Shown one piece after another: positions 26,315-55,585 of a DNA stretch of 64,000 nt. Under the pieces are notes generated by a model. That model was given only the letters and a program-made list of their open reading frames with translations, searched no databases and was not told the DNA's origin. This DNA comes from Flavobacteriales bacterium (lineage in GTDB: Bacteria > Bacteroidota > Bacteroidia > Flavobacteriales_D > Sanyastnellaceae), in assembly GCA_027491075.1 (NCBI GenBank), contig JAIXWX010000008.1:186001-250000 (forward strand), given 5' to 3'. Positions within the stretch are counted from its first letter, which is position 1. Every line of letters begins with the position of its first letter. The position numbers and the translations under genes were made by a program.

Positions 26315-27622
26315 CTATTCACTGAGTGCTTTTTTGAAAGTCTCCAAACAACGATTCCGAGCAAAGGTGTGTTCTACGATGGGCTTAGGGTAAGCGGGTG
26401 TTCCATATTCTGGTACCCATTTCTTAATGTAGTGCTTCTGTGGATCGAATTTTTCCATTTGACTGGTAGGATTAAATACTCGGAAGTAGGGAGCTGCGTC
26501 ACAGCCGCTGCCTGCTGCCCATTGCCAGCCACCAATGTTGGAGGCCAACTCAAAGTCCAACAGTTTTTTAGCAAAATAACTTTCTCCTAGCCTCCAATCC
26601 ATCAAAAGGTGTTTGGTGAGAAAGCTTGCTACAACCATGCGCACGCGATTGTGCATAAACCCAGTTTCATTGAGTTCGCGCATTCCCGCATCGACGATAG
26701 GATAGCCTGTTTTTCCCTCACACCATTTTCGAAAAAGGGCTTCATCGTTAATCCAAGGGATGCGATCGTACGCAGGTTTGAATGCATTTTTCGCGCTATG
26801 GGGAAAGTGATATATGATCATTTGGTAGAAGTCGCGCCAAATCAATTCATTCAACCATTTTTCACTTGTTTCTAAAGCGATTTTGCATAATTGTCGAATG
26901 CTGACTGTACCAAATCGCAAATGAACACTCAGCCTTGTAGTGCCTTTGACAGAAGGAATGTCCCTTGTATTCTCATAGTTTTTGATAAGAGAATAATCGA
27001 GATTGATTTTGGGAATTTCAAACTCCCCTTCACTGAATCCCATTTCTTGTAATGAAATAAATGGAGCAGGAGTCGTCTTCAAAAAATGATCGAAGAAATC
27101 CCCATTAGGGTATGGAGCATAGTGTGAAGGAGTAAGGAGACTTTTCCATTTTCTGCTGTATGGAGTAAAAACGGTATATGGTTTTCCATCGTCTTTTATC
27201 ACTTCACCTTTCTCAAAAATCACATGATCTTTTGCTCCTTTCATTTCAATTCCGTTTTGAGAAAGCAGCTTCTGAATGGATTCATCTCTTTCTTGCGCAT
27301 AGGGTTCGTAATCCCTATTGAGCCATACTTCACTGATACTATAAGTCCGAACAAGTTCATTGAATGCTTCAGTAGGAGTGGAGTAGAATACTCTTAAAGT
27401 ACTTCCTAGTTCTTCTAGTCGGCTTTTCATCGCTTGAAGTGTTTCATGAAGAAAGGCTACGCGACTATCTTTTTGATTATCTAGTTTATTGAGAATGTTC
27501 TTATCAAAAATAAAAATAGGAAGTACTGGACTTCCCGACTTTAAAGCCTTAAACAATCCTGCATTATCATCCAATCGCAGATCTCTTCTGAACCAGAAGA
27601 TGGTAATTTTTTGTGCATTCAT
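26315..27622 (-). CDS. phrB: Deoxyribodipyrimidine photolyase (class I, cryptochrome/photolyase family)
   Basis: A 435-residue flavoprotein that repairs cyclobutane pyrimidine dimers with blue light. The N-terminal Rossmann antenna domain starts IFWFRRDLRLDDNAGL. The FAD domain carries TTRLSVHLRFGTVSIRQL, the WLNELIWRDFYQMI block, GYPIVDAGMRELNETGFMHNR, RMVVASFLTKHLL, DWRLGE and WQWAAGSGCDAAPYFRVFNP. The length and motifs are those of class I CPD photolyases; (6-4) enzymes are longer and differ here. Its start overlaps the stop of the upstream oxidoreductase by four bases (ATGA). Pairing of these two genes is common in Bacteroidota, consistent with a light-stress operon. Confidence 0.95.
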   Translation of the reverse strand: MNAQKITIFWFRRDLRLDDNAGLFKALKSGSPVLPIFIFDKNILNKLDNQKDSRVAFLHETLQAMKSRLEELGSTLRVFYSTPTEAFNELVRTYSISEVWLNRDYEPYAQERDESIQKLLSQNGIEMKGAKDHVIFEKGEVIKDDGKPYTVFTPYSRKWKSLLTPSHYAPYPNGDFFDHFLKTTPAPFISLQEMGFSEGEFEIPKINLDYSLIKNYENTRDIPSVKGTTRLSVHLRFGTVSIRQLCKIALETSEKWLNELIWRDFYQMIIYHFPHSAKNAFKPAYDRIPWINDEALFRKWCEGKTGYPIVDAGMRELNETGFMHNRVRMVVASFLTKHLLMDWRLGESYFAKKLLDFELASNIGGWQWAAGSGCDAAPYFRVFNPTSQMEKFDPQKHYIKKWVPEYGTPAYPKPIVEHTFARNRCLETFKKALSE

Positions 27623-54035: not shown

Positions 54036-54536
54036 TTAGCGAAAATCCTTCAAATCGTCCATCAAGCGCTTTCTTGCGTGAAAGATTCTGCTCTTCACTG
54101 TACCCATCGGTATGGACATAGCGGAAGCAATCTCGTCATAATGATAGCCATCCAAAAACATTTGGAAGGGAGTCTTGAACTCATACGTCAAACCAGCAAT
54201 CGCTTTATTGATGTCTTTTTCGTTTACTCGGGTATTTACCAAATCCTCGCTCACCTTACCGTAGTTTATGTAAAACTGATTGGTAGTTTGATCGGTAATG
54301 GTGTTTTGAAGCTTCTTTCTTTTATAGTTATTGATAAAGATATTTCTCATGATTGTAAACAACCAGCCTTTGAAGTTGGTGCCTTCTTGGAAATGATCTT
54401 TATATCGAAGTGCTTTCAACATGGTGTCTTGTAGCAAATCCTCAGCATCCTCTACATTTCGGGTAAAGTTGTATGCAAAGCCCTTGAGATACTTGGCGTT
54501 GCTTGTCAACATCTGATTAAACTCAATGGTACTCAT
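54036..54536 (-). CDS. ECF-type RNA polymerase sigma factor (second)
   Basis: A 166-residue sigma-70 family protein. Region 2 (FAYNFTRNVEDAEDLLQDTMLKALRY, including WLFTIMRNIFINNYKRK) and region 4 (LDGYHYDEIASAMSIPMGTVKSRIFHARKRL) are intact, with 183-like spacing shortened. This sigma type is widespread in Bacteroidota and often lies beside a B12-type MerR gene, as here. There is no adjacent anti-sigma gene. A promoter with -33 TTTG and -7 TAATCTTTG, and two inverted-repeat pairs, lie in the 164-base upstream spacer, so its transcription is probably under repressor control. Confidence 0.93.
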   Translation of the reverse strand: MSTIEFNQMLTSNAKYLKGFAYNFTRNVEDAEDLLQDTMLKALRYKDHFQEGTNFKGWLFTIMRNIFINNYKRKKLQNTITDQTTNQFYINYGKVSEDLVNTRVNEKDINKAIAGLTYEFKTPFQMFLDGYHYDEIASAMSIPMGTVKSRIFHARKRLMDDLKDFR

Positions 54537-54545
54537 TTCGGTGTT

Positions 54546-54575
54546 TGTTTAAATATTCAGGACAAAGATTAAACA
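54546..54575. promoter_or_regulatory. Inverted-repeat operator 1: TGTTTAA-N16-TTAAACA
   Basis: TGTTTAA (54546-54552) and TTAAACA (54569-54575) form an inverted pair with 16 bases between. The right arm overlaps the TA of the ECF -7 box, so a bound regulator would block the promoter. The second pair has the same arms. Confidence 0.65.
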
Positions 54576-54594
54576 GAAATCGGCCCGCGCCAAA
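54563..54594 (-). promoter_or_regulatory. Promoter of the second ECF gene (-33 TTTG, N19, -7 TAATCTTTG)
   Basis: On the minus strand TTTG (54594-54591) is followed after 19 bases by TAATCTTTG (54571-54563), one base longer than the TAnnTTTG consensus. The box ends 26 bases before the ATG. Confidence 0.5.
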
Positions 54595-54598
54595 TTTT

Positions 54599-54629
54599 TG
54601 TTTAACTATTTTGTAAAAAAAATTAAACA
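54599..54629. promoter_or_regulatory. Inverted-repeat operator 2: TGTTTAA-N17-TTAAACA
   Basis: TGTTTAA (54599-54605) and TTAAACA (54623-54629) repeat the same arms with 17 bases between, five bases upstream of the -33 element. The left arms of the two operators are 53 bases apart, the right arms 54, or about five helical turns. Confidence 0.65.
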
Positions 54630-54700: not shown

Positions 54701-55585
54701 TTATAACCCCTTCACCAATTCTTCTGAATTTGGGAAGATGGTTACCACGGATGGATCAGGCGACTTGACTCCATGTAAGTTATTGCCTGTCAGGTAGAAA
54801 TGACAATCTGTGTCGGCAAATTGAGCAACAATTTTCTTTAAATAATCGGGGATTAAAACTGTTGAAGGATTTGTCGTAAAAATTGAAACAAAATTCACCG
54901 ATCCCAAACGTTGATACACTTGCATCAGGTCGTCGAATGGTACACTTTGCCCTAAAAATATGCTGCGATACCCTCTCAATTTGAGAATGTAATGCATCAT
55001 AATCAGGGAGATTTCATGGATCTCTAGTTCTGGCAAATACAAGACATAAGGAGTCACAGCTTCTTTGGGTGTCAAGGGCAAACGATCAATCTGAGAAAAT
55101 ATCTTCTGACGAACCATGCCGGATATGAAATGCTCCTGGGCAGGACAAATGACATTGGCTTGCCACAGGATCCCGATTTGCTTCATAAATGGAATGACAA
55201 CTTCTTTAAAAGTACGCTCCAATCCGCTTTCTTCAATGTACTTCTCTATTACGTCGTTAAAAAGCTCTTCGTCATAATTCAACATCGAGATCTTTAACAT
55301 ATGTAAGAAATGCTGCTCTGGTTGCTGAGCCGCTGCATGCTTACTGATGGTTTCACGCATCTGATCCTCAGACATGGAGGCTATTTGAGAAATCTTATAT
55401 CCCAAATTATTCAATAAGCTTACATTGAGAAGAAACTTTAAGTCTTTGTCGGTGTACTTACGAATGTTTGTGTCAGAGCGATCGGGTGCCAAGAGTCCAT
55501 AGCGTTGCTCCCATATACGTATGGTGTGCGCCTTGATCCCAGAAAAATTCTCGAGATCTTTAATAGTAAACTCTTGCATTTTCAT
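54701..55585 (-). CDS. MerR-family regulator with B12-binding-type domain (CarH/LitR-like)
   Basis: A 294-residue transcription factor. The MerR helix-turn-helix is at residues 1-72 (TIKDLENFSGIKAHTIRIWE, RYGLLAPDRSDTNIRKYTD). A four-helix bundle (about 90-165) keeps the CarH-type W141-x9-E151-H152 signature that contacts the upper face of adenosylcobalamin. A Rossmann-like cobalamin domain (about 178-285) follows. Its E-x-H motif is present (LEIHEIS, H190), but the usual Gly after it is Ser. In CarH/LitR the protein is a light-sensitive B12-bound repressor. A strong Shine-Dalgarno site precedes the ATG. It lies upstream of the second ECF gene on the same strand and is the obvious candidate to bind the inverted repeats between them; that is inference. 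Confidence 0.9.
   Translation of the reverse strand: MKMQEFTIKDLENFSGIKAHTIRIWEQRYGLLAPDRSDTNIRKYTDKDLKFLLNVSLLNNLGYKISQIASMSEDQMRETISKHAAAQQPEQHFLHMLKISMLNYDEELFNDVIEKYIEESGLERTFKEVVIPFMKQIGILWQANVICPAQEHFISGMVRQKIFSQIDRLPLTPKEAVTPYVLYLPELEIHEISLIMMHYILKLRGYRSIFLGQSVPFDDLMQVYQRLGSVNFVSIFTTNPSTVLIPDYLKKIVAQFADTDCHFYLTGNNLHGVKSPDPSVVTIFPNSEELVKGL

Follow-up and report, generated by a model that had tools for sequence, protein, structure and literature searches.

Among the known systems nearest to the regulator analysed here are CarH and class I LitR of Thermus thermophilus, Bacillus megaterium, and Myxococcus xanthus, which have the same MerR, four-helix, and B12 domains and the same fold as that predicted for our protein. 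The genes litR and litS of Streptomyces coelicolor adjoin, and LitS is of the ECF type. The operator of CarH consists of three to four tandem 11-bp direct repeats, published as nAnnTnnACAn (PMC8156234; this and the other cited reports were available only in part, and statements drawn from them are limited to the available parts). In S. coelicolor, a B12-type MerR protein controls the sigma factor that drives the carotenoid genes (PMC12705666), as is proposed here for a different phylum. The class II LitR proteins PplR1 and PmlR2 of Pseudomonas keep only the four-helix domain, receive the light signal from a LOV partner, and have two sites per promoter, one at -35 and the other between the transcription start and the ATG (PMC9758184). 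Flavobacterial crt clusters, such as that of Nonlabens spongiae, carry a MerR gene at their head, and no operator, regulon, or sensor was given for them in the available part of that report (PMC11855829). Light-induced carotenoids were described in a Chryseobacterium, with the light-regulated mechanism unknown (PMC7064467), and rhodopsin-bearing flavobacteria were found to have more photolyase genes, without such a regulator being named in the part available (PMC5932025). MliR of Bizionia was considered as a possible relative and set aside because no CarH or B12 link was found in the available text. No operator for the Bacteroidota branch of CarH/LitR-like regulators was found in the open literature, most subscription papers being outside the search.

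The window, that is, the whole analysed stretch of 64,000 nucleotides (positions 186,001 to 250,000 of contig JAIXWX010000008.1, Flavobacteriales assembly GCA_027491075.1), contained on its minus strand a gene for a CarH/LitR-like MerR regulator of 294 aa (54701-55585), the presumed operator-binding protein, followed by a 164-base spacer and a gene for an ECF sigma factor of 166 aa with Sigma70_r2 and Sigma70_r4_2 domains (54036-54536). The regulator-ECF adjacency of LitR-LitS was thus present at this locus. Two palindromes were located in the spacer, the downstream one being TGTTTAA-N16-TTAAACA (54546-54575), covering the -7 box together with the predicted transcription start, and the upstream one TGTTTAA-N17-TTAAACA (54599-54629), just upstream of the -33 element. 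The positions given in an earlier sequence-only reading for these two inverted pairs, with their identical 7-base arms and left arms 53 bases apart, were exact; the right arms were 54 bases apart. The -7 element AATCTTTG (54563-54570, minus strand) had the form AATnTTTG in 24 of 25 spacers including our own, and the -33 element TTTG (54591-54594, minus strand) was separated from it by 20 bases and lay between the two palindromes. A TTG at N17-23 upstream of the -7 element was found in 14 of the 25 MerR-ECF spacers, ours among them. As had been claimed, one arm (54569-54575, minus strand) overlapped the -7 box at 54570-54563, and the other pair sat just outside the -33 TTTG, its inner half-site (54599-54605, plus strand) being 4 bases from this element and its outer half-site at 54623-54629 (minus strand). 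The remaining half-site (54546-54552, plus strand), which reads TTAAACA in the direction of transcription, fell in the predicted 5' untranslated region. The pattern TGTTTAAN14-20TTAAACA occurred at two places in the window and in none of 100 dinucleotide shuffles. In classical MerR activators, the palindrome lies inside a promoter spacer of 19-20 bp. That layout was not met by the window palindromes, which flanked the 20-base promoter spacer, with only one arm of the downstream palindrome entering it.

A search of 60 genomes, including our own, returned a MerR match at E <= 0.001 in 52, and an ECF match followed the MerR gene in 25 of 30 MerR loci (L005-L034, our own included). Both palindromes were conserved in all 25 of these MerR-ECF spacers, our own included, at no fewer than 10 of the 14 arm letters, with a palindrome-to-palindrome distance of 52-55 bp. 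The upstream palindrome had the N17 form only in the window and in G001 (L006), while N16 was found in the other 23 loci. The arm register was set by likeness to TGTTTAA, without favouring one position over another, and the upstream arms of L005 and L006 were counted in the N17 register. TGTnnA was intact in all 100 arms of the 50 palindromes, and changes were confined to arm positions 4, 5, and 7. Since TGTnnA reads TnnACA on the other strand, the invariant arm bases coincide with the CarH half-site core. The sequence-only reading had likened the operator to the repeated sites of CarH; the half-site core bore this out, whereas the geometry did not, because tandem direct repeats were absent and each of the two palindromes, spaced by about 53 bp, was instead built from inverted half-sites with an arm-to-arm distance of 23-24 bp. 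The TGTACA core of PplR1/PmlR2 fits both TGTnnA and TnnACA, with cores 18 bp apart (TGTACA-N12-TGTACA) compared with 23 in the window system (PMC9758184, available part), and the arrangement of two sites on one promoter has a close functional counterpart in PmlR2 of Pseudomonas mendocina (same source). The distances between palindromes clustered at 42-45, 52-55, and 63. Phasing with the DNA helix was only suggestive, since all 25 distances outside the window's family gave p of about 0.0003-0.0008 but came from related genomes, and the 13 unique distances alone gave p of 0.06-0.32. Equating the operator with an MlrA box was dropped.

Inverted repeats could also act as RNA hairpins, in a terminator or a 5' leader element, and not as protein operators. 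The arms are complementary, they changed alike at six palindrome positions, and one further pair in the genome, with an N19 spacing at C25:331882, read as an A/T-rich hairpin. Against this, the promoter's -33 element is preceded by the upstream palindrome, the arm spacing was fixed at 23 bp (rarely 24) with TGTnnA never altered, and many unrelated genes had a site in the 200 bp or so before them, so that an RNA role is hardly credible. An Rfam scan of L001 and L003 gave a single match, below its gathering score. Taken together, the palindromes form a genuine, conserved operator, with MerR as its inferred binder.

The occurrence of the site was compared with that of the MerR gene in 399 genomes of the order. 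The exact N16 palindrome was found at 694 places, compared with 25 for the reversed pattern, and was present in 288 genomes; the motif was thus far from random in frequency, and chance occurrence, which would have refuted the earlier proposal, as would a lack of conservation in orthologous spacers, did not hold. When genomes were called MerR-positive by a match to the window's MerR at E <= 1e-20, the exact site was present in 274 of 330 positive and 14 of 69 negative genomes (Fisher p 1.4e-23, uncorrected for ancestry). The same trend was seen in the window's family (60/92 versus 1/22) and outside it (214/238 versus 13/47). This link is partly trivial because many sites sit at the MerR locus itself. 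An unlinked transcription factor that merely shares a light regulon with MerR could in principle occupy the palindromes, as 56 of the MerR-positive genomes had no exact site and the 14 genomes without a detected MerR had one. All 14 of these, however, were at most 93% complete, and the site was absent from MerR-negative genomes of at least 95% completeness (0/19) and rare in those of at least 90% (3/31). In G009, which is 87% complete and in which no MerR was found, a good site preceded crtI. In addition, 66 of 80 named MerR loci of Bacteroidota had a site at a score of at least 18, and the invariant core was that of the CarH half-site. An unlinked factor is accordingly given very little weight. 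At the same G009 locus (L273), the right arm TTGAACA coincided with the -35-like GAAC of an ECF-type element, and the MerR half-site and the putative ECF -35 thereby overlapped.

The named loci had several layouts. Algoriphagus and Pontibacter had MerR-ECF-crtI-crtB with two sites before the ECF gene. In Flavivirga, Algibacter, and Flavobacterium the order was MerR-crtI-crtB and the site preceded crtI, whereas in Zobellia, Winogradskyella, and Aquimarina it preceded MerR itself; the MerR-headed crt arrangement reported for N. spongiae is similar. No ECF gene was found within about 5 kb on either side in the second and third layouts, which indicates that the site goes with MerR and not with ECF. 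Three further loci (L052-L054) had MerR-ECF together with carotenoid genes and one of them (L054) also a photolyase, the genes being named by reading. Loci matching the MerR type were also found under the record titles Klebsiella pneumoniae (L192) and Chryseobacterium gleum (L143, L151), and these titles may be wrong. From co-occurrence, the half-site core, and position, it is inferred with high confidence that MerR is the protein that binds the operator.

To characterize the regulator, an alignment (A1) was built from 33 MerR loci (L005-L034, L052-L054) without L007, which was truncated, and L023 and L034, which had odd starts. The MerR winged helix (PF13411) and the four-helix B12-binding_2 domain (PF02607) were matched in all 30 members, at 3.3e-12 and 2.4e-10 in the window protein. 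The B12-binding domain PF02310 was not matched in the window protein at E <= 0.1; 19 of the 30 members did match it. The best PDB sequence matches of the window protein were Thermus CarH/LitR (1.2e-16). Its AlphaFold model (pLDDT 89.2) superposed on the CarH B12 domain with Z of 17-18 and an rmsd of 2.3-2.5 A over about 195 residues, and the protein is therefore predicted to fold like CarH. Residues W141, E151, H152, and H190, which are equivalent to the AdoCbl contacts W131, E141, H142, and H177 of CarH, were invariant in 30 of 30 members. AdoCbl-contact residues, the half-site core TnnACA, and an association with carotenoid genes are thus common to CarH and the window system. The two differ in the target, which is an ECF sigma gene in the window, and in the score against the CarH equivalog NF052513, where the window protein reached 88.6 bits compared with a cut-off of 400; for this reason it was named CarH/LitR-like and not CarH.

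The published light signature comprises GxxW, EH, GxxH, and GxxxP (PMC11796333, in the part available). GxxW, EH, and GxxxP were present in the window protein, and GxxH was incomplete, with Leu187 in place of a glycine that was found in 11 of the 30 members. The protein also had Gln at the position of CarH H132 and Ser for Gly in ExHxxG. These losses, together with the missing PF02310 match, leave room for the same MerR protein binding the operator under a signal other than photolysed AdoCbl, namely as a B12-independent, CarA-like repressor, through a photosensor partner of the kind used by class II LitR, or with another ligand in the B12-like fold. CarA of M. xanthus has a B12-binding motif and yet needs no B12 (PMC8156234, available part), class II LitR answers to its LOV partner (PMC9758184), and the SCHIC domain of AppA also fitted the model (Z 13.8-13.9). 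However, the four contact residues never varied, CarH fitted better than AppA (Z about 18), the GxxH glycine supplies a main-chain carbonyl, and SasPcob, a tested photoreceptor, likewise carries Gln where CarH has H132 (PMC11796333, available part). A different signal is hence unlikely, though it cannot be disregarded. A cobalamin adenosyltransferase gene was present in 58 of the 60 genomes searched, including our own. The description of the ECF gene product as a light- or B12-gated sigma factor remains an inference, with the AdoCbl-contact residues kept and one signature glycine missing; from residues, fold, and target genes, gating by light and AdoCbl is considered fairly probable. The signal is the main uncertainty, because of that glycine and because CarA works without B12.

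The MerR protein, whose gene lies directly upstream, would use the two palindromes as a paired operator, with TGTnnA/TnnACA half-sites of the CarH type as arms. In darkness, MerR, probably loaded with AdoCbl, would occupy both palindromes of the ECF promoter; one would cover the -7 box and the transcription start and the other would lie just upstream of -33, so that RNA polymerase would be blocked. Light or loss of AdoCbl would release MerR, and the ECF factor would then be made. LitR promotes litS transcription in light (PMC12705666, available part), and MerR might in the same way activate the ECF promoter in light, the upstream palindrome being the activator site. The imperfect -33 element, with TTG suitably spaced in only 14 of 25 spacers, and the position of one palindrome just upstream of -33 fit such activation. 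In 24 of the 25 spacers the other palindrome overlaps the -7 box, which suggests dark repression instead, since protein bound there would block the promoter; PmlR2, which has one site over -35 and another past the start, acts as a repressor (PMC9758184, available part). Activation is considered improbable, and repression of the ECF promoter by MerR, which is inferred from the -7 overlap, likely. The earlier proposal that MerR represses the ECF gene through this operator was supported, with MerR binding itself inferred. As the best overall explanation, a paired operator for the adjoining MerR, with dark repression of the ECF promoter and release by light through AdoCbl, is held with moderate confidence. 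The window protein is probably a CarH/LitR-like, AdoCbl-gated dark repressor of the ECF sigma factor, its binding and its dependence on light and B12 being inferred.

In the whole genome of 3.02 Mb, TGTTTAAN14-20TTAAACA was found at four places (reversed control, 0), namely the two window palindromes, C25:135147 (N16), and the N19 pair at C25:331882. The 32-base N16 form with up to three mismatches gave 57 matches in the genome compared with 81 for the control; relaxed matching was thus at background, the signal was confined to near-exact sites, and a genome-wide regulon through relaxed arms in this genome was ruled out. A position weight matrix was trained on 46 of the 50 palindrome windows, four having too little flank. 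Only the two operators exceeded a score of 14 in the window, and no site at a score of at least 14 was found in the crt, rhodopsin, photolyase, and fasciclin regions of this genome (L069, L260-L263); direct operator control of these genes was therefore rejected. The only other exact N16 palindrome (C25:135147-135176, or L070 7148-7177) lay 140 bp before the gene of a secreted-looking protein of 1058 aa, with a terminator-like hairpin about 200 bases away on its other side. The photolyase-type gene of the window (26315-27622, minus strand) lay directly behind another gene on the same strand, and the 200 bases before it contained neither the operator nor a GAAC-TGTT element. A photolyase-domain match at L252 (G000:C22:232676-233158), which had two internal stops and was near another weaker match, is perhaps a decayed paralogue.

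Sites in relatives lay before genes of several kinds. In 31 inspected loci with 34 exact sites, of which a few belonged to MerR or ECF loci, 25 sites preceded genes for ECF factors (4, assigned by sequence likeness), crtI (2), rhodopsin (4), folE (1), fasciclin-domain proteins (13), or a photolyase-associated row (1). Pfam matches upheld all four rhodopsins, folE, one beta-carotene dioxygenase adjoining a rhodopsin, photolyase genes in four of the inspected loci, and 11 of the 13 fasciclins, the other two being outside the scan. The expectation that the motif would be found before ECF, photolyase-associated, and carotenoid genes was met, and rhodopsin and folE were added to it. The remaining nine sites preceded genes with no clear light role or no name (a short-chain dehydrogenase, DXS, CIA30, DUF4397, PKD/GEVED, two unassigned genes, a sigma-factor-like gene, and the C25 gene of our own genome). 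The sigma-factor-like gene, 227 bp behind an exact operator (L101, G052:C49), read like a primary-type sigma factor. Fasciclin-domain proteins were the commonest neighbours of distal operators, at 13 of the 34 sites (L103, L104, L109, L112, L117-L120, L122, L124, L126, L127, L129). In a scan of 30 rhodopsin loci taken from a longer match list, sharing two genes with the 34 sites, a matrix site at a score of at least 16 was present in 13, always 15-135 bp before the rhodopsin start; no site at this score was found in the other 17 of these 30 loci. In other Bacteroidota, direct targets of MerR may thus also include crtI, folE, and the rhodopsin, photolyase-associated, and fasciclin genes. In Dokdonia PRO95, proteorhodopsin was described as constitutively expressed, which would not fit light gating of rhodopsin there, and the control of flavobacterial rhodopsins was left open with the words 'further work is needed' (PMC3587595, in the part available).

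In contrast to LitR-LitS, our ECF gene stands away from the crt genes. The carotenoid cluster of the genome (L069/L264, G000:C32, about 57-62 kb) was far from the MerR-ECF pair and contained crtI and, by reading, crtB, IDI, and crtZ- and cyclase-like genes. Its crtI was preceded by an ECF-type GAAC-N17-TGTT element. In 15 of 21 regions of the family, the 110 nt before crtI contained the pattern GAAC-N15-18-TGTT, compared with 0.12 expected in shuffles, although this statistic is optimistic because the pattern was first noticed in these same sequences. Before the family's rhodopsins it was present in only 3 of 11, and it was absent at the rhodopsin of our own genome, so no general rule can be drawn. 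The element before crtI looks like an ECF promoter and, by analogy with LitR-LitS, suggests a relay from MerR through ECF to crt. In the window's family, the ECF factor would then probably turn on the carotenoid operon through the GAAC-N16/17-TGTT promoter; this inferred relay is rated somewhat better than even.

What is new here is the arrangement of inverted half-sites and the predicted regulon containing rhodopsin, whereas the kind of light switch is known. The CarH half-site core is shown in a different geometry, and a readable operator code is provided for a widespread Bacteroidota branch of CarH/LitR-like regulators. With the chances evenly balanced, a single light repressor of the B12 type, acting through an inverted-pair operator, may run a regulon for life in the light across Flavobacteriales and other Bacteroidota, comprising carotenoids, pterin/photolyase repair, rhodopsin phototrophy (with a retinal-making gene in some operons), and fasciclin surface proteins, while in the window's family the ECF factor would hand the signal on to dispersed targets. 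If this is true, vitamin B12 status and light would together gate the expression of rhodopsin.
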